Assembly (NCBI RefSeq): GCF_027812955.1 | Contig: NZ_JAPYZV010000005.1 | Coordinates: 1 to 64,000, forward strand | Reading direction: 5' to 3' | DNA from: Pedococcus sp. 5OH_020 | GTDB taxonomy: Bacteria > Actinomycetota > Actinomycetes > Actinomycetales > Dermatophilaceae | Length of the DNA stretch: 64,000 nucleotides | In this document: piece by piece, positions 10,231-32,037 of the stretch | Layout of the letters: each line of letters starts with the position of its first letter | How positions within the stretch are numbered: position 1 is the first letter of the stretch | Translations under genes and position numbers: made by a program | Notes under the pieces: model-generated | What the model was told of the DNA's origin: nothing | What the model saw: the letters and a program-made list of their open reading frames with translations, nothing else | The model's database searches: none

Positions 10231-10342
10231 CTGTAGAACCGACTGGAGAACCCGCGCGCCCTCATACCTTCTCCAAGTGACGCGGTCGTGGTGCATCCCT
10301 AGCCTCCCGGAGAAACACCATCGGGCCGCTGAAGGGATTCCC

Positions 10343-11953: not shown

Positions 11954-12097
11954 GCCGGCTTCCAGCCGCTCTTGGCGGAGTAACGGAATTCTGTCCGCGG
12001 CTCCTGAAGAATCACAGTTCACCGGGACAGGTCGGCCAACGAGACTTACTTCCAGTCGTCATCGGGTGTGCGATGCGCAGAAAATGGAGGAGCCGTC

Positions 12098-13714: not shown

Positions 13715-13735
13715 CCGCGCAGACTCTCGACGGGA

Positions 13736-13815: not shown

Positions 13816-14020
13816 AACGTCTCGGAACCAGTTCTCCAACGGCGCCGCGGCTCGCGGACAAGTCGCCGGGCCGAAGGAAGACGGCCTCGAGCCGCTCCAC
13901 GGCCGGCGGATGGGAGAACTGGAGGGGTGCGGCGCGCACCTACTCGGCGCTGTCGACCAACGGCAGGACGACGCCGTCGGCGCCCAGGGCCAACCTGCCA
14001 CGCAGGTTCTCGTTCAGTCG
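13816..14020 (-). pseudogene. Remnant of an HpcH/HpaI-family aldolase
   Basis: In one minus-strand frame two blocks typical of 2-keto-3-deoxy-sugar-acid aldolases remain: ALGADGVVLPLVDSAE (compare the family's DLGADGVIVPMVDTAEQA), and after an in-frame TAG at 13940-13942, VERLEAVFLRPGDLSAS (compare GIDGIFIGPADLSASMG). The stretch that should separate them, including the metal-binding Glu region, is largely deleted. The remnant begins at the stop of the Zn dehydrogenase on the same strand, so the two once formed an operon. Motif-based; no alignment was run. Confidence 0.6.
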
Positions 14021-15129: not shown

Positions 15130-15370
15130 ACCGCAAGCGTCGGCGCCGGAAGGCCGTACAGCCACCGCTTGCTGACGAAGCCTGGGAGCCCCCTTTGCTA
15201 CAGATGCAGAGAGTCACACCTGCGGTGCATCGCTATCGTTGGGCCAGCGAGCGGCAGCACTGGGCTCCGGCGGTATGACGCGACCGTGGAGTTCCGAACC
15301 GGCGGGCCTTGGCTGGGCCACATCGGACGCTCGCGACCCATCGCTCAATGCGGAGAACAAGGGGACACCT

Positions 15371-16195
15371 ATGCCAGGCACCGACCTCACGATGACGACC
15401 TCCGACGGAGTGCATATCGTCTTCGACGACGAGGGCGAGGGCAGCCCGTTCCTCTTGGTCCACGGCTACGACGGCCTTCGCGCTCACTGGGAGTTCCAGC
15501 GAGATGCGCTGTTGGCCGCCGGCCATCGCGTGGTGGCCCTGGACCAACGAGGGCATTGGGCCTCCGACAAGCCACTACACGGGCTGCGGATGTCGCGTCT
15601 CGGTCAGGACCTGCGCGAGCTCATCGAGCTCTTGGACCTGGACGACATCACCCTCGTCGGCCACTCCATGGGGGTGTCGGCCTCACTCGCCATGTTCTCG
15701 ATCTCCGGCGTCGACCCCGTGAAGCGGTTCGTAGCGATCGAGCAGTCGCCGAAGCTCACGAACGAGGACGGTTGGACCTGGGGCGCGCGAGGTCTCACCT
15801 GGGACAACGTCTACGACATGGCGTACAGGCGAGCGGTGTTGGGTCAGCCCGAACTCGAGCCGCCGATGCCCGAAGGTGCGGCGATGGGTATGACTGAGCA
15901 CACGTTCGACCACGAGAAGGTGTCCAAGCTACTGCTGGACCACATGGTCGCCGACTGGCGCGACGTCCTGCCCCGTATCCCCGTTCCGACGTGGGTCGTG
16001 GGCGGGCGACTGAGCCCTTACTACGACATGGACGGGATGGAGTGGTTCGCCGCGCAGGTGCGTGACAGCCGCCTCACCGTCTTCGAGAACAGCGGACATT
16101 CACCGCACGTCACGGAGGTGGAGGAGTTCAACCGCCGGCTCCTGGACTTCGTGACACTTCACCCAGGAGCACCCGGACCTGTCTCCCAGGACTGA
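15371..16195 (+). CDS. Alpha/beta-hydrolase
   Basis: 274-residue hydrolase. FLLVHGYDG provides the oxyanion region, GHSMG the nucleophile Ser (about residue 100), and NSGHSPHVTE near the C-terminus the catalytic His. The frame is open from 15239, but the ATG at 15371 follows AAGGGGA and begins at the expected first strand. It is divergent from the Zn dehydrogenase and converges with an SDR gene. The family covers esterases, lactonases and C-C hydrolases; the substrate is not predictable. Confidence 0.85.
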   Translation: MPGTDLTMTTSDGVHIVFDDEGEGSPFLLVHGYDGLRAHWEFQRDALLAAGHRVVALDQRGHWASDKPLHGLRMSRLGQDLRELIELLDLDDITLVGHSMGVSASLAMFSISGVDPVKRFVAIEQSPKLTNEDGWTWGARGLTWDNVYDMAYRRAVLGQPELEPPMPEGAAMGMTEHTFDHEKVSKLLLDHMVADWRDVLPRIPVPTWVVGGRLSPYYDMDGMEWFAAQVRDSRLTVFENSGHSPHVTEVEEFNRRLLDFVTLHPGAPGPVSQD

Positions 16196-16227
16196 CGCTC
16201 CAGCTCCATCCCGGGAGGAGTCGTCAG
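16192..16227. terminator. Possible hairpin between convergent genes
   Basis: CTGACG-CTCC (16192-16201) pairs with GGAG-T-CGTCAG (16217-16227), with one bulged base. It spans the ends of the hydrolase and SDR genes; the right arm includes the SDR stop codon. Confidence 0.45.
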
Positions 16228-17081
16228 AGGCAACGCGCAGACAGCCCGCCATCGACAGGCAGGCACACTCCGTTCACGTAGGACGCGGCATCGCTCGCAA
16301 GGAAGACCGACACGTTGGCCACGTCCCAGGGGGTCCCCATGCGACCCGTCGGACTGGCGGCATGTCTCGCCGCGAGGGCATCCGGATCGCTCGTGATCTG
16401 CTGCGAGACAAGCGGTGTGTCGATCAAGCCTGGTAGCACCGCGTTGGCGCGGATGCCGCGCGCCGCATAGGTGAGCGCCAAGGAAACGGTCAGCTGGTTC
16501 ACGCCAGCCTTGGTGGCGTTGTACGCAGGGTAGGTGTAGCCGGTGTCACGGATGCTTGCCGTCGAGGAGACGTTGATGATGGCCCCACGGCCTGACTCGA
16601 GCATTCCAGGAAGAACATGGCGGGCGGTCAGGTATGCGCTGGTGAGGTTCAAACGAACTGACGCGTCCCATGCTTCGAGCCCGAGCTCCAGGACCGAGCC
16701 CCTTCGAGCCACCCCGACGTTGTTGTGCAGAATGTCGAGGCCACCCAGCTGGACGGTCGCAACGCGGACCGCGTCCTGGACCTGGGCCTCGTCGGTGACG
16801 TCGGCCCTGATGGCGATCGCCACACCACCGGAGACGGTGATCTCTTCGGCGACGCGCTCGGCCTCACTCGCGTCGACGTCGACCGCAGCTACGGCGGCAC
16901 CCGCTAGCGCATAGGCCCGAGCGGCGGCCTCTCCATTACTGATGCGGGAGCCCGAGGAGCCCGCGCCGAAGACGATTGCAGTCCGGCCACGGAGGTCGAA
17001 GTGCGGATGCCACGGGCGGTCCTGCTCCGGCTGCCGAGTGTCGTCGCCCGTGGCGCCACCCTGGGTGGTCACTTGCTCCAT
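16224..17081 (-). CDS. SDR family oxidoreductase
   Basis: 285-residue short-chain dehydrogenase. The cofactor motif is expanded (FGAGSSGSRISNGEAAARAY), an insertion between the first and third glycines that is unusual for classical SDRs. NNVGVARRG and the catalytic Tyr-x-x-x-Lys in YNATKAGVNQL are normal, and the C-terminal NGVCLPVDGG ending is typical. I choose the ATG at 17081, preceded by GGAGCG; the frame is open to 17333. It diverges from the PucR regulator, so it is a likely target of it. Confidence 0.87.
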   Translation of the reverse strand: MEQVTTQGGATGDDTRQPEQDRPWHPHFDLRGRTAIVFGAGSSGSRISNGEAAARAYALAGAAVAAVDVDASEAERVAEEITVSGGVAIAIRADVTDEAQVQDAVRVATVQLGGLDILHNNVGVARRGSVLELGLEAWDASVRLNLTSAYLTARHVLPGMLESGRGAIINVSSTASIRDTGYTYPAYNATKAGVNQLTVSLALTYAARGIRANAVLPGLIDTPLVSQQITSDPDALAARHAASPTGRMGTPWDVANVSVFLASDAASYVNGVCLPVDGGLSARCL

Positions 17082-17265: not shown

Positions 17266-18486
17266 GTGAGCGTGGGCGCCGTCCAACAGCTGGTGGATGA
17301 CTTGGCTGCTCGCTTGCATCGTTCGGTGGTCATCGACGACCCGGAGGTGAGACTGCTTTACGCGAGCAGGCACTACGGCGACGACGACGAGGCACGCCGA
17401 CGCGCTGTCCTCGAGCACGACGCCGGCGCACGAACCATCGGCTACGTGCTTGCCCACGGAGTTGCGACGTGGACGACGGCTGGGATCATTCCAGCAAGCG
17501 CGGAGTTCGGGCTGCAGACTCGCGTCTGCGTTCCCATCCGCTGGCGCGGCACGCTCCTGGGACTGCTCATGGTGGTTGACAGGGAAGGCACCTTGACGAC
17601 GGCCGAGATGTCGCTGCTCACAGAGGCCTGCCAGGAGCTTGCCACGTTGATGTTCGGCGATCATGCACCAGAGGTGGACGATGATGCCCAGGCACTCTCG
17701 GACGCTCTGGACGACCTCGTCGCTTCCGAGCCCGCCCTTCGTCGAGCGGCAGTTCGGACGCTCACGGCTCGCCTGGGTGAGCATGGTGACCGGCATGTCC
17801 GGGCGCTCCAGCTCAACGCGTACGAGGGCCGGGTTCCGAGCAGCCCCGGACACATCTCCGCCGGCTTGAGACACGCGCTGGCGTCCGAGGCGCCTCGGCA
17901 CGGTGCTTGGACGCGGCTCACGGCGGTGCACGAACGGTCTGCGCTCGTTCTCCTTTCCAGCCGCACCGAGATCAGAACCGAGACGGTGACTGCGTATGCC
18001 GGCGATCTCGTCGCGCGGGTTCACGACGTCGCGGCAGGTCGCTTCAGATGCGTGGCGGGAATGGGCGGCTCGGCCGTGGGACTCGAACAGGCGCGAGCCT
18101 CCTTTCGCCAGGCAGAGCTGGCGGCGCGCGCCGGCAGAGACCTGCTCTCACAGCCCGTGGTCGCATGGGCGAACCTCGGCGAGCTCGCTGTCCTGCTCCA
18201 GCTGCCGCTGGCCCAGCTGGAGGAGGACTGCTTGCCTGAGGAGGTCCAGCGCCTGGTGGCGTCCGACAAAGACGGTCGCAGCATCGAGACGGTGCAGGCC
18301 TTCTTGGACCACGCCGGGTCTGCGCCCGAGACGGCCGATGCGCTTCACCTACACCGCACGGCGGTGTACTACCGGCTCGAACGAATTCGGGAGGCTACCG
18401 GTCTGGATCTGGATGACGGCCGCACGCGGTTGGCGCTGCACCTCGGCCTGCGCCTGCGAGAGCTGCTCAGGCTGCAGCACCACTAG
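17266..18486 (+). CDS. PucR/CdaR-type transcriptional regulator with GAF-like sensor
   Basis: 406-residue regulator. The N-terminal half resembles a GAF-type sensor (about 15-135). The C-terminal end has the PucR helix-turn-helix: FLDHAGSAPETADALHLHRT then VYYRLERIREATGLDL. It begins with GTG at 17266. Such proteins usually activate catabolic or transport operons in response to a small ligand. It lies between the divergent SDR and the convergent dipeptide-type ABC transporter, so either or both may be controlled by it. Confidence 0.87.
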   Translation: MSVGAVQQLVDDLAARLHRSVVIDDPEVRLLYASRHYGDDDEARRRAVLEHDAGARTIGYVLAHGVATWTTAGIIPASAEFGLQTRVCVPIRWRGTLLGLLMVVDREGTLTTAEMSLLTEACQELATLMFGDHAPEVDDDAQALSDALDDLVASEPALRRAAVRTLTARLGEHGDRHVRALQLNAYEGRVPSSPGHISAGLRHALASEAPRHGAWTRLTAVHERSALVLLSSRTEIRTETVTAYAGDLVARVHDVAAGRFRCVAGMGGSAVGLEQARASFRQAELAARAGRDLLSQPVVAWANLGELAVLLQLPLAQLEEDCLPEEVQRLVASDKDGRSIETVQAFLDHAGSAPETADALHLHRTAVYYRLERIREATGLDLDDGRTRLALHLGLRLRELLRLQHH

Positions 18487-18516
18487 CCGGCCCCTATCGG
18501 CCTCTGACCAATCCGT

Positions 18517-20388
18517 TCACGCCGCCGGATCTGCCGGTGGTGCGGCACCATGCCGCAGGCCGCTCGCTTGGAGACTCAAGCCGCCGGTTCGGGTGGCCCC
18601 GCCAGTGGGGATGGCATTGACGAGCTCCCGGGTGTACTCATCCTGCGGTGAGTCGAACAGCCGGGCGACCGGTCCGACCTCCCGCACCACGCCCTGCTGT
18701 AGGACGAGGGCGCGGTGCGCTACCGCCCTGACCAGTGCCAGGTCATGAGACACGAACACCACGGAGGTGCCATGTTCCGCCGACAGGGCCGACAGGAGAT
18801 CAATGATGGCAGCCTGAACGGAGACATCAAGTGCTGAGGTGATCTCGTCCGCGAGGATCAGCTTGGGGTTCGCTGCGAATGCCCTGGCGATCGCCACTCG
18901 CTGCTTCTGGCCACCCGAGAGCTCGTTGGGGTATCGATGCGCCATGGACGGTGGAAGGTTGACCTGTGCCAGGATCTGGCGGACCCGTTCCTCTCGGTCT
19001 CGCCGCGAAAGGCCTCGTTCAAACAGCTGCATGGGGCGCGCGATGAGGCTCATGACATCGTGCCGCGGGTTCAGTGACGTGTCGGGGTTCTGGAAGATGA
19101 TCTGCATGTCGCGCCGGACCGTCCTGCGCCGCTTGGCCGCGTTCGACGGCAGATCGGCTCCCTCGAACCGGATGCTGCCGGCCGAAGGCGGGTGTAGGCC
19201 CGCAACGGTTCGGATGAGCGTTGACTTTCCGCTACCCGACTCTCCGACGATGGCGAGGGTCTCACCCTGCGGCACGTCGAAACTCACCCCTTTGACCACC
19301 GGTGTCGTGCTTCTGTGCGAGCTGTACTCGCACCAAAGCTCCTCGACACTCAGCAGCGGAGAATGATCCTTGACCACAGGCAGCTCGAGCTTCCGATCGC
19401 GAACGGTCAGCACGATGTGCTCCGTCGCTCGAACACAACGCGCGCTGTGGGAGTCGCTGAGACTCACCAGTGCCGGGTTGGCCCGGATGCACGGGTCGAT
19501 GGTGTAGCCACACCGGGGAGCGAAGGGACAAGCCGACTCGACGACCCCCTGCGGTGGAGCGCCAGGGATGCCCGACAATGCGGTCTTGCCCGATGGGTCC
19601 GGAACGGCCGCGACAAGCGCTTGGGTGTATGGATGCACCGGCTGGGTCAGCAGAACAGCCGCCGGCCCCGCTTCCACGACCTGACCGCCGTACATGATCG
19701 CGGCGCGGTCGCAGACCTCCGCAAGGAGCGGGAGGTCGTGGCTGACAAGCAGTGCCGCAGTCTGGTGCTCGGCTATGACTCGCTTCAGGAGTCCCATGAT
19801 CCGGGCCTGGGTCGTGACGTCGAGTCCTGTGGTGGGTTCGTCCAGAATGAGCACTTCGGGGTTGCACGAGAGAGCAATGGCCAGGTTGATTCGCTGTTGT
19901 TGGCCGCCGCTGAACTGGTGCGGGTACCGTCGAAGGGCCGCGTCGGCGTTGGGAACGCCGACCTCGTTCAACAGCTCGAGCTGCCTGGCCCGCAGTTCCT
20001 TACCACCGATGCGCAGATGCAGCATCATCGGCTCGGCGAGCTGTGCCCCGATCGTGAGCGCCGGCGTCAGGGTCTGAGACGAGGCCTGCGGAACATAGAC
20101 GACTTTGCTACCCCATAGCCGGCGGAGCTTCGGCAACGGAAGACTGAGGAGGTCGAGGTCGCCCAGCAGAGCAGTGCCGCTGAGCACCTCCATGCCACCA
20201 GGCCGGTAGCCGATCGCCGCAAGAGCGGTGGTGCTCTTTCCGCAACCGGACTCTCCCGCCAGGCCGAGGACCTTCCCACGGGTCAGGGTCAGGTCCACGT
20301 CCCTGACCACCGTGTTGACCGAGCCGTCCCGCTGCCTATAGCCAACGGAGAGGGACTGGATATCCAACGCAACTGGCGACGTACTCAC
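18517..20388 (-). CDS. Fused double ATP-binding protein of a dipeptide-type ABC transporter
   Basis: 623-residue protein with two complete nucleotide-binding domains in tandem, the equivalents of DppD and DppF. First half: Walker A GESGCGKST, signature FSGGQQQR, Walker B VLILDEPTTGLD. Second half: Walker A GESGSGKST, signature LSGGQKQR, Walker B LILADEITSALD. The oligopeptide C-terminal Cys-containing motif (CPFAPRCGY) follows the first domain. The GTG start overlaps the preceding permease stop by 4 bases (GTGA). Last gene of the B-C-DF operon. Confidence 0.93.
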   Translation of the reverse strand: MSTSPVALDIQSLSVGYRQRDGSVNTVVRDVDLTLTRGKVLGLAGESGCGKSTTALAAIGYRPGGMEVLSGTALLGDLDLLSLPLPKLRRLWGSKVVYVPQASSQTLTPALTIGAQLAEPMMLHLRIGGKELRARQLELLNEVGVPNADAALRRYPHQFSGGQQQRINLAIALSCNPEVLILDEPTTGLDVTTQARIMGLLKRVIAEHQTAALLVSHDLPLLAEVCDRAAIMYGGQVVEAGPAAVLLTQPVHPYTQALVAAVPDPSGKTALSGIPGAPPQGVVESACPFAPRCGYTIDPCIRANPALVSLSDSHSARCVRATEHIVLTVRDRKLELPVVKDHSPLLSVEELWCEYSSHRSTTPVVKGVSFDVPQGETLAIVGESGSGKSTLIRTVAGLHPPSAGSIRFEGADLPSNAAKRRRTVRRDMQIIFQNPDTSLNPRHDVMSLIARPMQLFERGLSRRDREERVRQILAQVNLPPSMAHRYPNELSGGQKQRVAIARAFAANPKLILADEITSALDVSVQAAIIDLLSALSAEHGTSVVFVSHDLALVRAVAHRALVLQQGVVREVGPVARLFDSPQDEYTRELVNAIPTGGATRTGGLSLQASGLRHGAAPPADPAA

Positions 20389-21281
20389 AACATCGAGTCC
20401 TTCATGCCATCATGGCTTACGTAGCGCACCATTGAGTCCGCCATCAGGTTCAGCCCCACGGACAGTGCTGCCACACCGACGACTGGGGCCAGGGATGCGT
20501 AGGGCTGCACCTGGACGTAGGCGAGGTTCTGGGCGATGGACAGTCCCCAGTCGGGCGAAGGCGGCTGCGCCCCGAGGCCCAGGAAGTTCAGAGTCGCGAC
20601 GAAGATCACCCCATAGGTCACACGCAAGGCGAGGTCGGAGACCACCGGCGCAACGATGTTGGGCGCTATCTCTCGGACGACGATGGTGACGCGCCGCTCC
20701 CCGCGAGCGCGGGCTGCTTGCACGTAGTCGGATGACACGACGGCCAGCGTTGTGCCGCGGGCCACGCGGCCGATCTGGGGTGCGAAGATCAGTGCGATGG
20801 TCAGCACCAGCACGGCGGTGGAGGACCCGAACCCCGCGATGACCGCGAGCGCGATCAGGAGTGGTGGAAGGGTCAGCAGAATGTCGAAGACCCGAGCAAC
20901 CACGGCATCGAGAGCGCCACCGATATACCCGCACGTCATGCCGAGGAAGCCGCCGGAGATCGTGGCCAGCCCGACCGCGGCCAGTGGCACCAAGAGCACC
21001 ATCCGACCTCCGCTGAGGAAGCGGCTCCACACGTCGCGACCGAGGTTGTCGTTGCCAAGGACGAAGCCTCGGCCCGGCGGCGCGAGCGGAAGGCCCGCAG
21101 CAAGCTCGTTCGGATCATGCGGCGCAAGAACGGGACCCAACACGATCACGATCATCATGAGGGCGACGATGACCAGCCCGACTCGACCCGTCCAGGTGTG
21201 AGTCACGGGGTGGAGGACTCCACCGCGCCGGGACCTTCTGGGCACGGCGTCCATGCTCGGATCAGTCGCTGCAACGCTCAT
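20385..21281 (-). CDS. ABC transporter permease, DppC-like
   Basis: 298-residue inner-membrane permease. A cytoplasmic N-terminus and first helix precede an external segment with LAPHDPNEL and GNDNLGRDVWSRFLSGGR, the signature of DppC/OppC. The BPD_transp_1 domain follows, with the EAA loop around QAARARGERRVTIVVREIAP. The ATG overlaps the DppB-like stop (ATGA), and its own stop overlaps the ATPase start. Confidence 0.93.
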   Translation of the reverse strand: MSVAATDPSMDAVPRRSRRGGVLHPVTHTWTGRVGLVIVALMMIVIVLGPVLAPHDPNELAAGLPLAPPGRGFVLGNDNLGRDVWSRFLSGGRMVLLVPLAAVGLATISGGFLGMTCGYIGGALDAVVARVFDILLTLPPLLIALAVIAGFGSSTAVLVLTIALIFAPQIGRVARGTTLAVVSSDYVQAARARGERRVTIVVREIAPNIVAPVVSDLALRVTYGVIFVATLNFLGLGAQPPSPDWGLSIAQNLAYVQVQPYASLAPVVGVAALSVGLNLMADSMVRYVSHDGMKDSML

Positions 21282-22297
21282 CGACTGCCACCCTTCAGTC
21301 TTGGGTCGAGATACGTCACGACCACGTCGGCCACCAGACCGAGGACGATGAACACTGCTCCCAACAGCATGATGATTGCGAGTGCGAGGTTCGCATCACC
21401 CTGAGCGATCGCCTGCACCAGCAGCCGACCGAGGCCAGGGAACGCGAACACGTTCTCGACAACGATGACGCCGCCCATCAGGTAGATGATGTTGATGGCG
21501 ATGGCGTTGACGAGCGGCACGGAGGCGGAGCGCACAGCGTGCCTCCAGATGACTCGACGGCGGCGCAGGCCTCGCAAGATGGCAGATCTGGTGTACGGCG
21601 CAGCAAGGGCCTCGAGCATCGAAGCACGCGTGATGCGCCAGACATAGGCGACCACGCCAAGACCGAGGGTCAGTGAGGGGAGTACGAATGCCAGGAGCTT
21701 CTCACCGGCGCTGCCCTCGGCGACGGCGTTGGACGAGACAGGGAACCATCGGAGCTGAACCGCGAACGTGACCATCAGGCCAAGTCCGATCACGAACTCC
21801 GGGAGTGCCGCAAGGACGGTCATGCCGACGAAGAGGCTCTGGTCGACCGCTCCCCTGCGCCGAGCGGCTGCGACGCCGAGTGCGATGGCCAGCAACACCG
21901 ACCAGGCCAGGGTTATCAGGGCAAGCTCGCCCGTGTGGACGTAGGCCGGGAGTACCAGTGGTCGGACTTGTTGGTTGACAAGCGTTGCGCCCCAGTCCCC
22001 GCGAACGAAGTGGCCCAGCCAGCTGAGGTACTGCACCATCACCGGACGGTCGAGGCCGTGCGAGGTCGCATACGCGCGCAGCTGCGCAGGTGTGGCTCCC
22101 CGTCCGAGGACGTTGCGGGCGATCTGCACCGGCGAATGGTTCATCGCCACAAACGCGATGAAGGAGATCAGGAACAGCGTCAGCAGAGCGAGCCCGACCT
22201 GCCGTACCACGGCACGCGCACGCGCGGCCCTTCCTCGCGACGCTGTTGGTGCGGCCACCAAGGGGCCCTGCGTCGGCACTGGCGAAATCACGGACAC
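21278..22297 (-). CDS. ABC transporter permease, DppB-like
   Basis: 339-residue permease, first gene of the transporter operon. The N-terminal helix is followed by a periplasmic segment with YATSHGLDRPVMVQYLSWLG, typical of DppB/OppB, then five more helices and the EAA loop (TRSAILRGLRRRRVIWRHA). The GTG start at 22297 is preceded by GGAGGGAG. With DppC, the fused ATPase and either upstream binding protein it would form a complete importer. The ligand may be a peptide or another amide/ester. Confidence 0.93.
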   Translation of the reverse strand: MSVISPVPTQGPLVAAPTASRGRAARARAVVRQVGLALLTLFLISFIAFVAMNHSPVQIARNVLGRGATPAQLRAYATSHGLDRPVMVQYLSWLGHFVRGDWGATLVNQQVRPLVLPAYVHTGELALITLAWSVLLAIALGVAAARRRGAVDQSLFVGMTVLAALPEFVIGLGLMVTFAVQLRWFPVSSNAVAEGSAGEKLLAFVLPSLTLGLGVVAYVWRITRASMLEALAAPYTRSAILRGLRRRRVIWRHAVRSASVPLVNAIAINIIYLMGGVIVVENVFAFPGLGRLLVQAIAQGDANLALAIIMLLGAVFIVLGLVADVVVTYLDPRLKGGSR

Positions 22298-22735: not shown

Positions 22736-22852
22736 ATGCCAAGACTCCCCACCGGGTCCGAGACGACTCTCTCCGAGATCGCCGGACAGGCCATGAGTAG
22801 ACGCGGGTCCGGGGATCAGGATGCCGCCCCTCATACAGGTGTCGTCAAGTGA
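22736..22852 (+). CDS. Possible 38-residue leader ORF coupled to the thiolase gene
   Basis: A small ORF, beginning at ATG 22736 with the excellent site AGGAGG at 22724-22729 and ending in TGA at 22850-22852. Its stop overlaps the thiolase GTG (22849-22851) in a GTGA arrangement like those later in this operon. The thiolase itself has no strong ribosome binding site, so ribosomes finishing the small ORF may restart on it. The peptide is hydrophilic (ends GDQDAAPHTGVVK) and resembles nothing I know. It may be a translated leader or the remnant of a former operon gene. Confidence 0.5.
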   Translation: MPRLPTGSETTLSEIAGQAMSRRGSGDQDAAPHTGVVK

Positions 22853-24021
22853 GCACGGGGGCCACGTCGATCATCGGCTGGGAGCACTCGGTCTTCGGCA
22901 AGCTCGAGCACCCAGACACCGCATCACTCATGGGGTCGGTCGTCCCCGGCGCGCTGAAGCACGCGGCCGTCGCGCCCGAGGAGGTCGACGGGATATTCGT
23001 CGGCGTCTACAACAACGGGTTCTCGACGCAGGACTTCCAGGCAGGCCTGGTCTCCATGGCCGTGCCCGCGCTGGCCGAGGTTCCCGCGACTCGCCTCGAG
23101 AACGCGTGCGCCACCGGCTCGGCAGCCCTCTACGCGGCACTCGACTTCGTCGAGTCTGGCCGTGGAAAGGTGGCTCTCGTCGTAGGCGCGGAGAAGATGA
23201 CCGGTGTCACCTCAACGCGCGCCGGCGAGATCCTTCTCTCAGGCTGCTACGGACCCGAGGAGGCCGCCGTGGAGAGCGGCTTCGCGGGAGTCTTCGCCGG
23301 CATCGCAGCGGCCTACGCGGACCGGTACGGCGACCCGAGCGAGACGTTGGCCCGCATCGCGGCCAAGAACCACCACAACGGTGTGACCAATCCATACGCG
23401 CAGATGCGCAAGGACCTCGGGTTCGACTTCTGCAACACGGTCTCGGAGAAGAACCCGATGGTCGCCCCACCGTTGCGACGTACCGACTGCTCACTGATCT
23501 CCGACGGGGCCGCCGCTCTGGTGGTAGCGGCCCCCGACGTCGCGCGGTCCGCACCGCGACGGGTGGGGTTCCGCGCCCGCGCCCAAGCCAACGACTTCAT
23601 GGCGCTTTCGAAGCGGGATCCCCTGGAGTTCGCCGGCGTTCGCCGCGCGTGGAGCGCTGCGATCGAGCAGGCCGGCATCACCACCCTGGAGCTGGACCTG
23701 CTGGAGACCCACGACTGCTTCACTATCGCCGAGCTCCTGCAGTACGAAGCGCTGGGCCTGGCAGACCGTGGGCAGGGCCATCGGGTCCTCGACGAGGGGT
23801 TGGTCTCGCCGGAGGGAAAGCTGCCCGTCAACCGATCTGGTGGTCTCAAGTCGAAGGGGCACCCGATCGGTGCAACAGGAGTCTCCATGCACGCCATCGC
23901 GGCGATGCAGCTGGCCGGCGAGGCGGGCGGGATGCAGCTCGAGGCAGTGGAGCTGGCGGGGGTTTTCAACATGGGGGGCTCGGCCGTCGCCAACTACGCA
24001 AGCATCCTGGAGGCCTGGTGA
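22849..24021 (+). CDS. Thiolase, SCP-x type
   Basis: 390-residue thiolase-fold enzyme that would cleave or condense acyl-CoAs. The nucleophilic Cys is in ENACATGSAAL, the second loop is ETHDCFTIAELL (HDCF in place of the NEAF of common thiolases), and the C-terminal His is in GGLKSKGHPIGATG. These are the marks of the sterol-carrier-protein-x/lipid-transfer branch. Thiolases of this branch often work with a DUF35 zinc-ribbon protein, but none is adjacent. GTG start, coupled to the small upstream ORF. The stop overlaps the CoA ligase start. Confidence 0.9.
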   Translation: MSTGATSIIGWEHSVFGKLEHPDTASLMGSVVPGALKHAAVAPEEVDGIFVGVYNNGFSTQDFQAGLVSMAVPALAEVPATRLENACATGSAALYAALDFVESGRGKVALVVGAEKMTGVTSTRAGEILLSGCYGPEEAAVESGFAGVFAGIAAAYADRYGDPSETLARIAAKNHHNGVTNPYAQMRKDLGFDFCNTVSEKNPMVAPPLRRTDCSLISDGAAALVVAAPDVARSAPRRVGFRARAQANDFMALSKRDPLEFAGVRRAWSAAIEQAGITTLELDLLETHDCFTIAELLQYEALGLADRGQGHRVLDEGLVSPEGKLPVNRSGGLKSKGHPIGATGVSMHAIAAMQLAGEAGGMQLEAVELAGVFNMGGSAVANYASILEAW

Positions 24022-25607
24022 CCCACGCCCGTACTGCCGCCGTCCCCCGGGGTACCAGCAACCTCTCGAGCCTCCTGCGGCAGACCGCGGCCCGCCTGCC
24101 CGACGAACCCGCACTTGTCCGCGGCGAGCTGGTGTGGACCTGGGCAGAGCTGGACTCCCGGGTCGACGCTCTGGCTGCCGCCTACGCGGCGGCCGGGCTC
24201 CGCCCGGGGGACGTGGTGATGCTTCATGCACCGAACAGTCGTGACTACCTGACGGTGCTGTTCGCGGCCTGGCGCGTGGGGGCCATCGTGACCCCGACGA
24301 ACTGCAAGCTCACCGCTCAGGAGCTAGCAGCGCTGGCCGAAGTGGTTCGCCCCGCCCTGCTGGTGGTCCAGGAGGGAGCGGACGCGCACGCAAAGGCGCT
24401 GCACCCCGTCCCCTGTTGGACGATTTCCGACGGCCCGGGCACCGACGCGACACCGCATGTGGGGAGACTTGTCGACAAGCACCGCGGCGCCCAGGTAGAG
24501 GACGCAGCCATGATGGTCGGCGACCCAGCCTGGTTCTTCTTCACGTCGGGCAGCTCAGGTCGCCCCAAAGCTGCTGTGCTCACCCACGACCACCTGGCGT
24601 TCATCGTCAACAACCACCTCGCCGACCTCATGCCGGGACTGTCCAGCCGCGACTCGACTCTTGTCCTGGCACCTCTCTCCCACGGCGCCGGTGTGCATGC
24701 GCTGACTCATGTCGCCCGGGGCGCTCGGCTGGTGTTGTTGCCGGGCGAGTCGCTCGATGCGTCGCAGGCATGGTCGCTCATCGCCAGGCACAGGGTGTCG
24801 ACGATGTTCACCGTGCCAACCATCCTGAACCGGCTGGTGGCGGCGGTCGCCGAGGACACCGACCGCTCCTCATTGCGACAGGTGATCTACGCCGGCGCGC
24901 CGATCACCCGCCAGGACCAGCGCCGGGCCTACGACGTGCTGGGCCCGGTCATCGAGCAGTACTACGGACTGGCGGAGGTGACTGGCGCGATCACCGTGCT
25001 ACCGCCCGAGCTCCACCACGACGTGCCGACCTACGAAGGAATCGTCACCGCGGGCTACCCGCGGACGGGGATGACGGTTTCCATCCGAGACCTCGAGGGC
25101 AATGCGGTCCCGACAGGTGAGCGGGGGGAGATCTGCGTGGTCGGCCCGGCAGTCTTCGCCGGCTATCTGGACAACGACGATGCCAACGCCAACGCTTTCC
25201 GCGACGGTTGGTTCCGCACCGGTGACCTAGGCGTCGTAGACCAGCGTGGAATGCTCTACATCACCGGGCGAGCCTCGGACATGTACATCTCCGGCGGCTC
25301 CAACATCGACCCCCGCGAGGTGGAGGAGAAGATCCTGGCCCACCCACAGGTCCGGGCAGTCGGCGTCGTCGGCGCGCCCGACGCGGAGTGGGGCGAGGTG
25401 GGATATGCCGTTGCGGTGGTCAGTGGCGCGCTCACCGCAGAGGAGCTGCTGGCGTGGTGCCGCGAGCATATGGCTCGCTACAAGGCGCCGAAGGTGGTCC
25501 ACCTGGTCGATCAGCTGCCCACCACGGCGTATGGCAAGGTCACCACGCCGGTGCTGCGGGAGCTGCTCCGCAAGGCCGGTCGCTGGCCGCAGGTGCGGGT
25601 CAGGTGA
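24018..25607 (+). CDS. Acyl-CoA synthetase (AMP-forming)
   Basis: 529-residue AMP-dependent ligase that activates a carboxylic acid to its CoA thioester. Visible motifs: P-loop FFTSGSSGRPKAAVLTHDH, the YYGLAEVTG adenine-binding region, DGWFRTGDLG hinge-proximal motif, and the catalytic Lys region near the C-terminus (TAYGKVTTPVL). I choose the GTG at 24018, which overlaps the thiolase stop (GTGA). The frame is open far upstream through the thiolase, but that part is shadow. Together with the thiolase it points to beta-oxidation-like degradation of an unknown acid. Confidence 0.9.
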   Translation: MTHARTAAVPRGTSNLSSLLRQTAARLPDEPALVRGELVWTWAELDSRVDALAAAYAAAGLRPGDVVMLHAPNSRDYLTVLFAAWRVGAIVTPTNCKLTAQELAALAEVVRPALLVVQEGADAHAKALHPVPCWTISDGPGTDATPHVGRLVDKHRGAQVEDAAMMVGDPAWFFFTSGSSGRPKAAVLTHDHLAFIVNNHLADLMPGLSSRDSTLVLAPLSHGAGVHALTHVARGARLVLLPGESLDASQAWSLIARHRVSTMFTVPTILNRLVAAVAEDTDRSSLRQVIYAGAPITRQDQRRAYDVLGPVIEQYYGLAEVTGAITVLPPELHHDVPTYEGIVTAGYPRTGMTVSIRDLEGNAVPTGERGEICVVGPAVFAGYLDNDDANANAFRDGWFRTGDLGVVDQRGMLYITGRASDMYISGGSNIDPREVEEKILAHPQVRAVGVVGAPDAEWGEVGYAVAVVSGALTAEELLAWCREHMARYKAPKVVHLVDQLPTTAYGKVTTPVLRELLRKAGRWPQVRVR

Positions 25608-25614
25608 TGCCGAC

Positions 25615-26532
25615 ATGATGGCCACGGACATGCTAGGACTGCGTCCGGGGGCAGCGCGGCTGAAGCACCCTGGCCCGGTGGCAGCCGAGCGCGTCGTCTG
25701 CGTGCCGACGCGCCTCACCGGGTATGACATCGAGCTGCCCGCTGGTACCCCGCTGCTCCAGGCGCTGCAACAGCTGCTCGACGCCACGGGCTGCGTGTCC
25801 GCCAACGGCCAGCTCGTCGGCGGTGAGCTGAGCGAGTTCTCCTACTACATCCCCGACCTCGGCCCCGAGGGGGGGCCGGTTGCGAACTTCAGCCGGCTGT
25901 ACGTGGGAGCCGCGCCTGGGCGGATGATTCGCGGGGGGATCACCGTCGGTCGCCGCGACGGCGCAGTGTTCTGCCACAGCCACTCGCTCTTCGTGGACGC
26001 CGAGGGGACCGAGCGCGCAGGCCACCTCAATCCCGAGGAGGTGGTCCTCGGCTCCGGCGTGCGTGCGCAGGTGTGGGGCGGACCCGACGTGGTGGTGGAG
26101 GTCCAACCCGACCCCGAGACGCAGATGTCGCTTTTCACGCCCCGCCGGGTCGCCGATACGGGCGGCGGAGAGGTCTCCGCGGTGGTGTGTCGCATTCGGC
26201 CGAACGTCGACCTTGTCGGCGTGGTCGAACGCCTGACGGAAGCGCAGGGCTGGCTTGGGGCACACGTGCGCGGACAGGTCGGGTCGCTCGTGGGTGGCCG
26301 GCTCCAACAGCCCGACGGCTCGGTCGTGACAGTGGAGGGGCCGGCGACCGAGGTGATGTTCCTCGACGGGACGGTGCAGAGCGTCGAGGGGCGGATGACA
26401 GCTGACCTCAGCGCTCACCTGGTGGACCGCCACGCGGTCGTGCACAGCGGCCGCGTGTTGCCGGGGGAGAACGCCGTGGCGCTGACCTACGAGCTGGTGT
26501 TGACCGAGGCTGGCAACGGCGGCGACAGGTGA
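25615..26532 (+). CDS. Tandem PCC (DUF296) domain protein
   Basis: 305-residue protein with two PCC/DUF296-like halves. First half (about 30-180): LPAGTPLLQALQQLLDATGC at the start and the His-rich FCHSHSLFVDAEG then RAGHL, where PCC proteins usually bind metal. Second half (about 190-300): VVERLTEAQGWLGAHVRGQV, GSL and DLSAHLVDRHAVVHSGRVL, again the PCC His motif. Plant PCC domains sit in DNA-binding AT-hook proteins; bacterial forms are free-standing and mostly uncharacterised. There is no AT-hook here. ATG at 25615 follows AGGTGA. It sits between a CoA ligase and an FAD/Fe-S dehydrogenase, so a metabolic rather than regulatory role is likely. Function unknown. Confidence 0.75.
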   Translation: MMATDMLGLRPGAARLKHPGPVAAERVVCVPTRLTGYDIELPAGTPLLQALQQLLDATGCVSANGQLVGGELSEFSYYIPDLGPEGGPVANFSRLYVGAAPGRMIRGGITVGRRDGAVFCHSHSLFVDAEGTERAGHLNPEEVVLGSGVRAQVWGGPDVVVEVQPDPETQMSLFTPRRVADTGGGEVSAVVCRIRPNVDLVGVVERLTEAQGWLGAHVRGQVGSLVGGRLQQPDGSVVTVEGPATEVMFLDGTVQSVEGRMTADLSAHLVDRHAVVHSGRVLPGENAVALTYELVLTEAGNGGDR

Positions 26533-29285
26533 GTGTCGCGTCCCGACTGACAGGACGGGGCGTCGAACCGACGTCGGTACGCGACCGGCCGCTCGACCTG
26601 GTTGCCGCCGCGGCTGACGCCTCGCACTACCTGCTCACGCCGCAGGCTGTCGTGGTTGCGCGCGACGAGGCCGCGGTAGCGCGCGTCTTGGCGGCCTGCG
26701 CTGCCGAGGCGCTGCCGGTGACCTTCCGCAGCGGTGGTACGAGCCTCTCAGGCCAAGCGGGTAGTGACGGCGTGCTGCTGGACGTACGCCAAGGGTTCCG
26801 AGGGATCGAGGTCCTCGACGACGGGGCGCGGGTGCGAGTCGCCCCCGGCAGCACCGTGCGGTCGGTGAACGCTGCCCTGCGCCACCACGGGAGGATGCTG
26901 GGACCCGACCCAGCCAGTGAGTCGGCCTGCACGATCGGCGGCGTGGTGGCCAACAACTCCAGCGGGATGAGCTGCGGGATAGCGGGGAACACGTACCACA
27001 CCCTTGACGCCGTCCGGCTGGTCCTGGCCAGCGGCACGGTCGTCGACACGGCACATCGCGACGCCGACGCCCGCCTGGCTCACGACGAGCCGGCGCTGCA
27101 CGCGGGACTGCTGAGACTGCGCGACACGGTCCGCAACGATGCTGCCCTGCGGTCGCAGGTCGAGAGGCTCTTCTCCATCAAGAACACGATGGGGTACGGC
27201 GTCAACGCCTTTCTCGACCATGACTCACCGGCTGAGCTGTTGGCGCACCTCATAGTCGGCTCGGAGGGGACGCTGGCCTTCGTATCCTCAGCCACCTTCC
27301 GGACGCTGCCGGTTCGTCCTCACGCGGCCACCGGGCTGTTGGTCCTTCCCAACCTCGCCGCGGCCACCGACGTACTACCGGAGCTGGTCGCCTCCGGTGC
27401 CTCGGCCATCGAGCTGCTCGATACGCGGTCGCTGCAGCTGGCGGCTCGAGACCCGCGCGCCGTACCCGCACTGACCCACGTCGAGCTGGTCGCTCATGCA
27501 GCTCTGCTGGTGGAGTACCAGGCAGAGTCTGCCGCAACACTCGAGGCTCTGCTCGCCACGGCGGCGCCGCTGCTGAGCGGGGTCAGTACGACAACGGATG
27601 CCGCCACTCGTGCCGACCTGTGGCACGTCCGCAAGGGGCTGTACGCAACGGTTGCAGGCGCCCGACGTCCTGGGACGACTGCTCTGCTCGAGGATGTAGC
27701 CGTCCCTGTGGAGGCCCTCACGGACGCGTGCTCGGCGCTGGAGGAGGTCTTCTCCGCGCACGGCTACGACGCGGATGACACCGTCGTCTTCGGCCATGCC
27801 AAGGACGGCAACATTCATTTCATGGTCACCGAGGACCTCGGTTCCGAGGCCGGCGTGGCCCGCTATGCGGCGTTCACTGAGGACATGGTGGACGTGGTTC
27901 TCACCCGCGGCGGCACGCTGAAGGCGGAGCACGGCACGGGCCGCGTGATGGCGCCCTACGTCGAGCGACAGTACGGCGCGGCGCTGCACGGCGTCATGCG
28001 CGAGCTCAAGGCGCTCTGCGACCCGGAGGCGGTGCTGAACCCGGGCGTCGTCCTGACTGACGATCCGCAGGCCCATGTGCGCCACCTGAAGACGGTCAGT
28101 CCCATCGAGCCCGAGGTGGACCGGTGCGTCGAGTGCGGCTTCTGCGAGCCGGTGTGTCCATCTCAGGACCTGACGCTCACCCCGCGGCAGCGCATCGTCG
28201 CCCGCCGGGCAGAAGCGGCACTTCGAGCGAGCGGCGACCAGTCCGGAGCTGACGCGATCGCTGCCGACTACTCCTATGACGGCATACAGACGTGTGCTGC
28301 CGACGGGATGTGCCAGACCGTGTGCCCCGTGAGGATCGACACCGGCTCCCTGGTGCGCCGACTCCGCGCGTCCGAGCAGGGCCGTGCAGCTCAAGCGGGA
28401 GGCCGATCCGCTGCCCGGCACTGGACTGGCGCCACCGTGGTGGCGGCGCGGGGCATCTCAGCCGCCCACGCCGCACCGCGCCTGGCCACGGCGATGTCCC
28501 GGCTTGGCCGCCGCGTACTCGGCGAGGACCTCGTCCCCCTGTGGTCATCCGAGCTTCCTGGCGCAGGATCCGTCCGCCGTCAGGTGGGCGCCGCCGCCGC
28601 CGAGATCGTGCTGCTACCCAGCTGCACCGGAACGATGTTCGGTGGCGACGCTCCGACGACCGAGGCCTTCTTGGCGCTGTGCCGACGCGTCGGCGTACAG
28701 GTCAGGGTCCCCGACGAAGTGGCGTCGCTGTGTTGCGGGATGCCCTGGAGCTCGAAGGGGCTCACCGACGGCGCCGCGGTCATGGCGGCGAAGGCACGTG
28801 ACGTGTTGACCGCGGCCACCCGGGAGGGTTCGCTGACCGTCGTATCGGACGCGGCGTCGTGCAGCGAGGGGCTGGTGAAGTCGTTGCCCGACGCCCCGTT
28901 CGTGGTCGAGGACGCGGTGCCCTTCACCGCGCGGGTGCTGTTGCCCCGGCTGTCGCCTCGTCGGGTGGTCGAACGTCTGGCGCTTCATCCGACCTGCTCC
29001 TCGACCCGCACCGGTGGTAATGACGCCCTGCATGCGCTGGCGGCCGCGGTGGCGAAGGAGGTGTTCGTGCCGCCCTCGTGGGGCTGCTGCGGCTTCGCCG
29101 GCGACCGCGGTCTCCTGCACCCCGAGCTCACCGCGTCGGCCACCGCACGGCAGGCCGAAGAGGTCCGGGAGTATGGCGCCGACGCGCATGCCTCGTGTAA
29201 CCGAACCTGCGAGCTCGGCATGAGCCGCGCCGTGGGGACGCAGTACCGTCACGTGCTGACGTACCTAGAGCAAGCAACGAGGTGA
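26529..29285 (+). CDS. FAD/4Fe-4S D-2-hydroxyacid dehydrogenase (GlcD-GlcF fusion type)
   Basis: 918-residue fusion. Residues about 30-210 are a VAO-type FAD domain (TFRSGGTSLSGQAG and GPDPASESACTIGGVVANNS), followed by the FAD-oxidase C-terminal domain ending in HGTGR. Next are two 4Fe-4S motifs: CVECGFCEPVCPSQDL and CAADGMCQTVCPV. The end carries two CCG-type cysteine clusters (LCCGMPWSS and WGCCGFAGDRG, then SCNRTC). The architecture matches D-lactate/D-2-hydroxyacid dehydrogenases that pass electrons to the respiratory chain. The GTG start overlaps the PCC gene stop. It probably oxidises a hydroxyacid made or used by this operon. Confidence 0.9.
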   Translation: MSVASRLTGRGVEPTSVRDRPLDLVAAAADASHYLLTPQAVVVARDEAAVARVLAACAAEALPVTFRSGGTSLSGQAGSDGVLLDVRQGFRGIEVLDDGARVRVAPGSTVRSVNAALRHHGRMLGPDPASESACTIGGVVANNSSGMSCGIAGNTYHTLDAVRLVLASGTVVDTAHRDADARLAHDEPALHAGLLRLRDTVRNDAALRSQVERLFSIKNTMGYGVNAFLDHDSPAELLAHLIVGSEGTLAFVSSATFRTLPVRPHAATGLLVLPNLAAATDVLPELVASGASAIELLDTRSLQLAARDPRAVPALTHVELVAHAALLVEYQAESAATLEALLATAAPLLSGVSTTTDAATRADLWHVRKGLYATVAGARRPGTTALLEDVAVPVEALTDACSALEEVFSAHGYDADDTVVFGHAKDGNIHFMVTEDLGSEAGVARYAAFTEDMVDVVLTRGGTLKAEHGTGRVMAPYVERQYGAALHGVMRELKALCDPEAVLNPGVVLTDDPQAHVRHLKTVSPIEPEVDRCVECGFCEPVCPSQDLTLTPRQRIVARRAEAALRASGDQSGADAIAADYSYDGIQTCAADGMCQTVCPVRIDTGSLVRRLRASEQGRAAQAGGRSAARHWTGATVVAARGISAAHAAPRLATAMSRLGRRVLGEDLVPLWSSELPGAGSVRRQVGAAAAEIVLLPSCTGTMFGGDAPTTEAFLALCRRVGVQVRVPDEVASLCCGMPWSSKGLTDGAAVMAAKARDVLTAATREGSLTVVSDAASCSEGLVKSLPDAPFVVEDAVPFTARVLLPRLSPRRVVERLALHPTCSSTRTGGNDALHALAAAVAKEVFVPPSWGCCGFAGDRGLLHPELTASATARQAEEVREYGADAHASCNRTCELGMSRAVGTQYRHVLTYLEQATR

Positions 29286-29292
29286 TGCAGTG

Positions 29293-29796
29293 ATGACCCC
29301 ACCCCTGCAGTGGAAGGTGTCCGTCGACCCGACCGCCTGGGTCGCCACCAACGCAACTCTGGTCGGCGCGGTCACGGTCGGCCCGGAGGCGTCGGTCTGG
29401 TATGGCGCGGTACTACGCGGCGACGGTGATGCCATCGTCGTCGGGCCGCGCTCGAACCTGCAGGACGGCTGCGTGGTGCACGCCGACCCGGGGGTAGCGG
29501 TGCGCATCGGCGCCGGCGTCTCGGTCGGCCACCGGGCCGTACTCCACGGGTGCACCATTGAGGACGACGTCCTGGTCGGAATGGGTGCGATCGTCATGAA
29601 CCACGTGGTGATCGGCGCAGGGTCCGTCGTCGCTGCCGGCGCGCTGCTGCCTGAGGGACTGGTCGTTCCACCGCGGTCGCTGGTGCTCGGAATGCCGGCA
29701 AAGGTTCGGCGCGAGACGAATGACCATGAGGTCGCCGGGAACCGCGCGAACGCAGCCTCCTACGTCTCGCTGGCGGCGGCCCACCGGTCCCAGTAG
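29293..29796 (+). CDS. Gamma-carbonic-anhydrase-fold protein
   Basis: 167-residue left-handed beta-helix protein of hexapeptide repeats. The three zinc-binding His positions of gamma-class carbonic anhydrases are visible: VVHADPG, and both in VGHRAVLHGC. It resembles PaaY/YrdA proteins, some of which are thioesterases in phenylacetate and carnitine pathways, so it might serve the acyl-CoA pathway here. I prefer the ATG at 29293; a GTG at 29290 is immediately before it. It follows the dehydrogenase stop by 7 bases and is the last gene of the operon. Confidence 0.88.
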   Translation: MTPPLQWKVSVDPTAWVATNATLVGAVTVGPEASVWYGAVLRGDGDAIVVGPRSNLQDGCVVHADPGVAVRIGAGVSVGHRAVLHGCTIEDDVLVGMGAIVMNHVVIGAGSVVAAGALLPEGLVVPPRSLVLGMPAKVRRETNDHEVAGNRANAASYVSLAAAHRSQ

Positions 29797-29835: not shown

Positions 29836-29946
29836 ATGAGCGTTCACCCCGACCTGGTGCTCGGCAAGAAGAAGGAGAACCGTGAGCTCGACGCCCGGCG
29901 CCGAGTTGCGGTGGCGACCCGCACGGTCCGTCACCTCATGAGCTGA
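29836..29946 (+). CDS. Possible 36-residue basic ORF
   Basis: Between convergent genes, an ATG at 29836 opens a frame ending in TGA at 29944-29946. Codons carry the strong GC3 bias of real genes here (CTG GTG CTC GGC AAG AAG AAG GAG). The peptide is rich in Lys and Arg ([14 protein letters not shown]). It overlaps the last 11 bases of the acyl-CoA dehydrogenase gene on the other strand. There is no good ribosome binding site, so it may be a remnant. I do not recognise it. Confidence 0.25.
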
Positions 29947-31959: not shown

Positions 31960-31984
31960 CCTTCAACCTCCACGCGGTACGGGA

Positions 31985-32009
31985 TACCATCGTTATGGTA
32001 CTCAGTACC
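31985..32009. promoter_or_regulatory. Overlapping palindromes, probable TetR operator
   Basis: Two inverted repeats overlap in the 78-base divergent intergenic region: TACCAT-CGTT-ATGGTA (31985-32000) and GGTAC-TCA-GTACC (31997-32009). The partly repeated GGTAC theme also appears at 31976-31980. A TetR regulator gene starts 29 bases away, and TetR proteins usually bind such palindromes to repress themselves and the divergent operon. Confidence 0.65.
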
Positions 32010-32037
32010 GCCGTACAGGACAAGTGCAGGAGGACAG

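Follow-up and report, generated by a model that had tools for sequence, protein, structure and literature searches.

Analysis of a 64,000-nucleotide stretch of the Pedococcus sp. 5OH_020 genome (hereafter, the window) and its comparison with other loci indicated a recurring gene set consisting of a thiolase and a ligase, usually accompanied by a PCC (DUF296) protein, an SDR dehydrogenase, a regulator, and a transporter. The set was found in Alpha- and Betaproteobacteria and in a few Actinobacteria, and it seems to be a mobile or horizontally spread catabolic module in two distant phyla. Tentatively, and with somewhat less than even confidence, we infer that this module catabolizes a small acid carrying a tertiary 2-hydroxyl together with a 3-hydroxyl or 3-oxo group. 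The substrate, all of the steps, and the activity of the PCC protein were proposed from the gene content, synteny, metal-site conservation, and transporter family observed. The elements that are new relative to the first-pass annotation of this DNA are the SDR, the putative link through TRAP transporters to acetolactate-type ligands, and the metal site in the N-terminal half of the PCC protein. The gene set is apparently undescribed so far, as the first-pass annotation had thought most likely: among the titles listed from the literature searched, a scope outside which bioRxiv preprints and most subscription papers fell, none described this operon or its gene order, thiolysis of acetolactate, or a PCC protein with catalytic function, and no paper was found on DUF296 together with a thiolase.

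Gene cluster organization and enzyme families

Six ORFs on the forward strand followed one another in the same orientation, separated by -4 to +7 bp, as read from the sequence and translations. From the leader to the last gene, the junctions were -4, -4, +7, -4, and +4 bp, and three of them were GTGA overlaps (22849, 24018, and 26529). This confirmed the abutting and overlapping arrangement that had first been described, and the spacing fits one transcription unit, in keeping with the original claim that the genes are made together. A fourth GTGA (25604) does not begin a gene, since the PCC reading frame opens at the ATG at 25615.

The leader ORF (22736..22852; 38 aa) had no Pfam match and was preceded by a strong Shine-Dalgarno sequence, ccaggaggcagaccATG. 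In Nocardioides pocheonensis (L002; comparison loci carry L numbers), the same ccaggagg-ATG serves as the thiolase's own start, and a conserved leader peptide was rejected on that comparison. The leader assigned to the operon is thus present but not conserved, and it probably reflects a shift of the thiolase start that is peculiar to the window.

The SCP2-type thiolase (22849..24021) passed NCBIfam PRK07516 (616.7 bits, curated cut-off 412), a model that specifies no substrate, and kept the motifs ENACATG, HDCF, GHPIGATG, and NMGG. The acyl-CoA synthetase, an AMP-binding ligase (24018..25607), passed PF00501 and missed PRK07470, its nearest NCBIfam model (690.3 against a cut-off of 774). It was followed by the tandem PCC protein (25615..26532), identified by Pfam, profile-profile comparison, and motifs, and by a fused FAD-linked oxidase/4Fe-4S/CCG protein (26529..29285) resembling D-2-hydroxyacid (lactate/glycolate-type) dehydrogenases, with the Pfam domains FAD_binding_4, FAD-oxidase_C, Fer4, and CCG. 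The FAD part of this protein matched D-lactate dehydrogenase/glycolate oxidase entries (8jdc, E 9e-28; 9qgz, E 1.1e-26), and Fe-S and CCG domains were a further feature shared with this group, which includes GlcD; however, it is a 918-aa fusion and fell below every NCBIfam equivalog cut-off shown (GlcD, 183.9 against 567.9; YdiJ, 172.4 against 1350). The last gene (29290..29796) encodes a gamma-carbonic-anhydrase/PaaY-like hexapeptide protein (gamma-CA), a candidate thioesterase, which shared hexapeptide repeats (Pfam) and His residues with PaaY, CaiE, and gamma carbonic anhydrase but lay under all three NCBIfam equivalog cut-offs (152.4 against 250 for gamma carbonic anhydrase, 121.8 against 319.6 for PaaY). 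A housekeeping carbonic anhydrase was rejected because the gene occurred in only 3 of 11 genomes of the genus, one copy being partial. The family searches supported the ligase, thiolase, and 2-hydroxyacid-type dehydrogenase as pathway parts, as initially proposed.

The upstream neighborhood contained two SBP_bac_5 solute-binding proteins, possible ABC transporter partners (10277..13714, forward strand); a Zn-dependent, threonine-dehydrogenase-like alcohol dehydrogenase (14014..15165, reverse; 71% in L002, 50% in L071); an alpha/beta hydrolase (15239..16195, forward; 62% in L002); the SDR dehydrogenase of the recurring set (16224..17075, reverse, start approximate); a CdaR/PucR-type regulator (17266..18486, forward; also in L002, L071, and L072, 38-45%); and an ABC transporter, identified by reading the translations, whose parts are fused ATPases and two permeases (18517..22297, reverse; ATPase part 77% in L002). 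Homologues of the SDR occurred at other loci, with identities of 76% in L002, 61% in L071, and 47-55% in seven TRAP loci (L004, L006, L008, L010, L011, L022, and L079). Judged by synteny, the SDR, alcohol dehydrogenase, hydrolase, regulator, and ABC transporter (14014-22297) belong to the same neighborhood as the operon, all five kinds being present in L002.

Conservation and distribution of the gene set

The order thiolase-ligase-PCC-FAD was retained in L002, the nearest locus by synteny, with identities of 88, 79, 84, and 78%, respectively, which is more than chance; the thiolases matched at 19 further loci were 57-71% identical. On plasmids, 49 of the 60 thiolase records listed (of 87) had a PCC gene within 8 kb, and a thiolase lay within 8 kb in 49 of the 63 PCC records listed (of 64), these records being redundant, with many from Paracoccus and Roseomonas. 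Homologues were therefore co-localized and not scattered, scatter being the outcome that the first-pass annotation had named as speaking against it. Only the plasmid figures are counts over listings. Most proteobacterial loci were fetched through a PCC match, many thiolase matches were picked deliberately without PCC, and the genome searches scored at most five candidates from each genome among the matches listed. The neighborhood matrix leaves out L073-L078 (G536, G591, G007, two of G559, and G587), whose thiolases were 50-55% identical and whose gene lists showed no PCC (L073 spanning only 3.7 kb), and in it L012 was replaced by L079, a longer stretch of the same genome. In a tree that included five of these six thiolases, four of the five were placed outside, with L019. 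No relative was found in the viral contigs scanned.

The PCC gene recurred among these enzymes in other genomes, which upheld its proposed place inside the pathway. The idea that it always lies between ligase and dehydrogenase failed when placement was checked locus by locus: the order was ligase-PCC-FAD in the window and L002 and ligase-PCC-SDR-FAD in L071, and PCC directly followed the ligase in L005, L007, L011, and L018, followed an SDR in L006, L008, L010, L017, and L022, preceded the thiolase in L009, and lay on the opposite strand in L079. A local PCC was absent at seven thiolase loci (L013-L016, L019, L020, and L072), and L021 had only a fragment. The TRAP loci L004 and L006 carried a ligase, SDRs, and PCC, and the stretch read there showed no thiolase. 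An obligatory partnership of PCC with the thiolase was rejected, given the many thiolase loci without PCC and these two loci without a thiolase. The five genes also did not form the conserved unit: the leader is not conserved, L002 gave no gamma-CA match, and the recurring set differs. The initial interpretation was thus partly supported, standing for the co-localized enzymes and PCC but not for a fixed five-gene unit.

Transporters and the proposed pathway

A TRAP transporter was present at 12 of the 16 proteobacterial loci fetched. When five TRAP binding proteins were tested, the best PDB match was 4oan for L007, L010, and L018 (472, 427, and 463 bits) and 4p8b for L005 and L016 (234 and 243 bits). 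We take 4OAN and 4P8B to be 2-acetolactate complexes, and one paper reportedly assigned 2-acetolactate to TRAP proteins. According to a review, one cluster of TRAP binding proteins has been assigned 2-acetolactate. The TRAP proteins at ten loci were of the 4oan type (58-68% identity to that of L007), which suggested one small ligand class. Candidate substrates would be 2-acetolactate, 2,3-dihydroxy-2-methylbutyrate, or a 2-alkyl homologue; the second features, among the literature matches listed, in work on human samples and on patients, and none of the titles there concerned bacterial breakdown.

In the proposed pathway, the SDR would oxidize the 3-hydroxyl to a ketone, the ligase would form 2-alkyl-2-hydroxy-3-oxobutyryl-CoA, and the SCP2-type thiolase would yield acetyl-CoA and a 2-hydroxyacyl-CoA, in the simplest case lactoyl-CoA. 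A thioesterase, here plausibly the gamma-CA/PaaY-like protein, would release the 2-hydroxyacid, which the FAD/Fe-S dehydrogenase would turn into a 2-oxoacid (pyruvate). No SDR match was found in four of the seven non-TRAP actinobacterial loci (L013, L014, L015, and L072).

The same chemistry of SDR, ligase, and thiolase could act on another branched or larger hydroxy acid, such as a 2-alkyl-2,3-dihydroxy acid freed from an ester or amide by neighboring hydrolases, with the acetolactate-like binding a mere resemblance. The window transporter is an SBP_bac_5-type ABC transporter, not TRAP, and therefore the window substrate may be larger or different. Besides this transporter, the genes flanking the operon of the window include an alpha/beta hydrolase and an esterase, a Peptidase_S15/PepX_C hydrolase lies upstream in L002, and L010 continues directly with genes annotated as acyl-CoA dehydrogenase, enoyl-CoA hydratases, and mmsB. 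We nevertheless consider a different substrate possible but somewhat unlikely, as the single small ligand class suggested by the ten loci with 4oan-type proteins argues against it.

The tandem PCC protein

Pfam PF03479 matched the C-terminal half only (residues 193-302; 34.9 bits against a cut-off of 25). The N-half is also a PCC domain, as hhalign against single-domain PCC proteins gave E 1.4e-13 for this half and 3.8e-10 for the C-half; L009, L017, and L018 encode each half in a gene of its own. H121-X-H123...G136-H137 and D166-X-E168-T169 of the N-half were invariant in all 12 tandem proteins, with a three-His spacing of 2+14 in 11 of the 12 (2+13 in L007), and 11 of the 12 C-halves were without any HxH. 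The L006 tandem protein, missed by the split motif, was left out of the half-domain alignments. The single-domain alignment was selected for the His motif (20 of 28 loci), because eight loci (L045, L053-L058, and L061) gave no ORF with it, and the three-His site may thus not be universal in the PCC family. An AlphaFold2 model of the window protein, from an alignment with one relative (L002), had a mean pLDDT of 31.8.

The invariant His-X-His...Gly-His site led us to predict a metal enzyme acting on the pathway substrate, with the first half catalytic and the second degenerate. Such an enzyme might, for example, move or invert the tertiary-ketol center, making both enantiomers usable.

PCC may be kin to acetolactate decarboxylase (PF03306), with which it shares the SCOP fold d.290. 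In the profile alignment, the HxH..GGH of the decarboxylase was in register with PCC, whereas the His spacing was 2+11 in the former and 2+14 in the latter. The window PCC protein had no Pfam match to PF03306, and local hhalign P values were not significant (0.015 for all PCC, 0.02 for single-domain, 0.055 for N-half, and 0.026 for C-half) against a selected set of 26 decarboxylases, kept only if showing HxHF..GGH. Global mode found nothing (P 0.19-0.99), and 1 of 120 column shuffles outscored the all-PCC run. A more specific proposal, in which the tandem protein would be a metal enzyme of the acetolactate-decarboxylase superfamily acting on 2-acetolactate or its CoA thioester, within an undescribed route from an acetolactate-type acid to acetyl-CoA and lactoyl-CoA and on to pyruvate, is rather doubtful.

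PCC/DUF296 proteins are found in archaea as well as in bacteria and plants; in the latter two the domain is known to bind DNA, and we know of no other activity. The window N-half shared the domain family and the three-His 2+14 site with the single-domain proteins 2h6l (which we take to be AF0104), PH0802 (2dt4), and LmiA; the window protein differs in that a single chain carries two domains, of which the second lacks HxH, and in its setting amid a CoA-thioester pathway. The DUF296 protein LmiA, from enterohaemorrhagic E. coli, has been described as a virulence regulator and putative DNA-binding protein with a three-His zinc site (85, 87, and 101), and DUF296 as otherwise described is DNA-binding. 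The spacing shared with this regulator, together with some split PCC genes annotated as DNA-binding, would be consistent with PCC being no enzyme and instead serving the operon as a metal-dependent regulator or as a DNA-binding protein that senses a ligand. We regard this role as unlikely, because an IclR or CdaR regulator is already present at 14 of the 15 loci with PCC (window, L002, L004-L011, L017, L018, L022, L071, and L079; the exception is L009), the window PCC gene overlaps the dehydrogenase gene within an enzyme operon, and invariance in all 12 tandem proteins extends beyond the metal site to D.ET and other residues.

The dehydrogenase and gamma-CA genes

In L015, LutB and LUD lactate genes lay about 7 kb away, and in L020 a gene of the gamma-CA family lay about 3 kb from the thiolase-ligase pair. 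It is quite improbable that the FAD/Fe-S and gamma-CA genes serve functions of their own and merely abut a core of thiolase-ligase, PCC, and SDR, as the lack of a gamma-CA match in 18.9 kb of L002 (part masked) and of an FAD match in 13 TRAP loci might suggest, since the FAD gene order is kept in L002, FAD D-2-hydroxyacid-dehydrogenase-type genes occur at five of the seven actinobacterial loci without TRAP (window, L002, L013, L071, and L072; three whole genomes held 4, 5, and 5 genes of this kind), and gamma-CA adjoins the thiolase-ligase pair in L015 and L072.

To our knowledge, thiolytic breakdown of tertiary 2-hydroxy-3-oxo acids would be a new route. If the tandem protein does belong to the acetolactate-decarboxylase superfamily as an enzyme, this would be, as far as we know, the first catalytic role for the PCC/DUF296 domain. 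A recurring operon that combines a PCC protein bearing a metal site with a CoA ligase, a thiolase, dehydrogenases, and transporters whose class of ligand can be guessed makes the question of PCC activity directly testable.

Operon layout and the leader ORF

The six ORFs of the operon (22736..29796) were confirmed at the positions given by the first-pass annotation; they lie on the plus strand, with junctions of -4, -4, +7, -4 and +4 bp. The thiolase was SCP2-type (PRK07516, 616.7 bits against the NCBIfam cut-off of 412), and the other family matches (Pfam, NCBIfam) were an AMP-binding ligase, the PCC protein, an FAD-oxidase/4Fe-4S/CCG fusion and a hexapeptide gamma-CA/PaaY-like protein; specific NCBIfam equivalog cut-offs were not reached by the FAD, ligase and gamma-CA proteins. 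Immediately 3' of the operon (29936-32706), acyl-CoA dehydrogenase-like and 3-hydroxybutyryl-CoA dehydrogenase-like genes (minus strand) and a TetR-like gene were recognized from their translations.

The window leader opens with ccaggaggcagaccATG, with an overlapping GTGA as the restart of the thiolase. In Nocardioides pocheonensis (L002), the nearest relative, the matching sequence (ccaggaggtagccgATG) starts the thiolase itself. On the basis of this one close relative, the leader is more likely a locally displaced start with reinitiation than a conserved gene.

Recurrence and spread of the gene set

When 19 reference proteins were mapped by tblastn onto 23 fetched loci and the window, the recurring set was a thiolase-ligase pair, usually with PCC and an SDR. 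PCC was encoded in tandem form or as two adjacent genes (L009, L017, L018), and both forms occurred in L008, an Agrobacterium plasmid (7968-9866: a tandem gene and, on the other strand, a split pair beside an Lrp-type regulator). The window SDR (16224-17075, minus strand) showed 76% identity to L002, 61% to L071 and 47-55% to seven loci with TRAP transporter genes; five TRAP loci (L005, L007, L009, L017, L018) carried another SDR type only, and L016 gave a 33% match.

TRAP genes were present in 13 loci (L004-L011, L016, L017, L018, L022 and the actinobacterial L079); these include 12 of the 16 proteobacterial loci that were retrieved. An IclR regulator was present in 11 of the 13, all except L009 and L016. 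Among the seven non-TRAP actinobacterial loci, a CdaR regulator was found in the window, L002, L071 and L072 and IclR in L013 and L014, while tblastn matched neither in L015. Five of the seven (window, L002, L013, L071, L072) encoded an FAD-type 2-hydroxyacid dehydrogenase, and the SDR was unmatched by tblastn in four (L013, L014, L015, L072). Gene order was thiolase-ligase-PCC-SDR-FAD in L071, thiolase-ligase-gammaCA-FAD in L072, where gamma-CA occupies the PCC position, and thiolase-ligase-gammaCA in L015, with LUD and LutB lactate genes ~7 kb further on.

The thiolase occurred without a local PCC in L013-L016, L019, L020 and L072; L019 also lacked the ligase, and in Skermanella mucosa (L016) a PCC gene was located on a different plasmid (L003) of the same strain. 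L021 (Aminobacter MSH1 plasmid) contained only a PCC fragment (4438-4707; 62% to the second PCC half), and transposase genes are annotated elsewhere in that stretch. L004 (Phyllobacterium) and L006 (Chelatococcus) contained PCC, ligase, SDRs and TRAP genes with no thiolase match within the stretch read, and therefore PCC may go with the ligase and SDR instead of the thiolase.

In a thiolase tree of 26 rows, the window and L002 (PCC) clustered with L013 and L014 (no PCC; support 99/96), and L071 (PCC) with L015 and L072 (no PCC; support 100/100). Acquisition or loss of PCC thus leaves the thiolase-ligase pair in place.

Few Actinobacteria had PCC relatives of the operon kind: two among 98 relatives, counting the window's own genome, and that genome alone among 396 of the phylum. 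The gene was absent from all 10 other genomes of the genus. Eight of 345 members of the class, again counting the window's own genome, had the thiolase at a threshold of E 1e-100; in the rows listed for the phylum PCC and class thiolase scans, up to five candidates per genome were scored. On plasmids, PCC lay within 8 kb of the thiolase in 49 of 60 thiolase records listed, and a listed thiolase within 8 kb of PCC in 49 of 63 PCC records listed (both sets redundant). Scattered occurrence and plasmid location speak for horizontal spread of the gene set.

The tandem PCC protein

Pfam detected the second PCC domain only, and hhalign against single-domain PCC proteins recovered the first (E 1.4e-13, probability 98%) as well as the second half (E 3.8e-10). 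In the region of the His motif, the tandem-family profile also matched PDB entries 2dt4 and 2h6l. Residues invariant in the N-half of all 12 tandem proteins included H121, H123, G136, H137, D166, E168, T169, R26, Y77 and P80. The His spacing was 2+14 in 11 of 12 (2+13 in L007), as in LmiA of enterohaemorrhagic E. coli, for which the published description places a three-His zinc site at 85, 87 and 101. HxH was absent from the second half in 11 of 12 tandem proteins, L007 having one HGH. Judged from these residues, the first domain looks functional and the second degenerate. Among 28 single-domain PCC loci, eight (L045, L053-L058, L061) had no ORF bearing the HxH..GH motif, and therefore part of the PCC family may be without the metal site.

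Transport, and the proposed substrate and pathway

Three TRAP binding proteins matched PDB 4oan far better than any other entry: L007 at 472, L010 at 427 and L018 at 463 bits, with runners-up at 144 and 147 bits in two of the searches and no second entry at E 1e-50 in the third. For L005 (234 bits) and L016 (243 bits) the best match was 4p8b, ahead of entries at 196 and 188 bits. By similarity, the 4oan type occurred in 10 of 13 TRAP loci (L007, plus nine with 58-68% identity to its protein) and the 4p8b type in three (L005; L016, 75%, and L079, only 36%, to L005). Both structures were reportedly solved with (S)-2-acetolactate by the Enzyme Function Initiative. According to a review (PMC5812351), 2-acetolactate is one of the ligands that have been attributed to TRAP proteins. 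In the window, no TRAP match was found in the 28 kb searched; its transporter is ABC type with two SBP_bac_5 proteins, which may import a larger form of the substrate. Roseomonas mucosa (L018) carries a PRK07586 acetolactate-synthase-large-subunit family gene (13597-15138; 749.9 bits, cut-off 363) ~2 kb past its two split PCC genes. In Rhizobium leguminosarum (L010:7745-11542), genes annotated as mmsB, enoyl-CoA hydratases and an acyl-CoA dehydrogenase lie 3' of PCC, a hint of an isobutyryl-CoA-type product there.

SCOP groups AF0104, a single-domain PCC protein, with acetolactate decarboxylase at the superfamily level; if that grouping is true, PCC beside an acetolactate-type transporter would be a striking coincidence. 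Profile comparison gave weak support for such kinship. The best local profile alignment, from alignments selected for the motif, placed HxH..GGH of both in register (P 0.015 for all PCC, 0.02 single-domain, 0.055 N-half, 0.026 C-half). Global alignment gave no match (P 0.19 to 0.99), and one of 120 column-shuffled controls outscored the all-PCC run (22.0 vs 21.9).

In the proposed pathway, the ligase would activate an acid with CoA, the SDR could supply the 3-oxo group of the 3-oxoacyl-CoA required by the thiolase, and 2-hydroxy-2-methyl-3-oxobutyryl-CoA would yield acetyl-CoA and lactoyl-CoA. Such a scheme predicts lactate/glycolate-type FAD dehydrogenases, LutB, LUD and PaaY-like proteins, as present in actinobacterial loci. 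Three whole genomes had 4, 5 and 5 FAD-oxidase_C genes, and three of the 11 genomes examined in the genus carried a gamma-CA homologue (one partial). The gamma-CA genes outside the operon in genomes G708 and G007 had apparently CoA-related neighbours (gene lists, by eye), which fits a possible thioester role. By eye, the gene lists also point to a group of gamma-CA, FAD oxidase, 2-oxoacid-dehydrogenase-like and CoA-transferase-like genes at L107 (G708:C8), outside the PCC locus.

The gene system is real and recurrent and, as far as our searches reach, undescribed in the literature. It would be a new form of CoA-dependent acid breakdown by thiolysis, with a substrate and steps that we infer from sequence, and its PCC member is the central question that the system raises.
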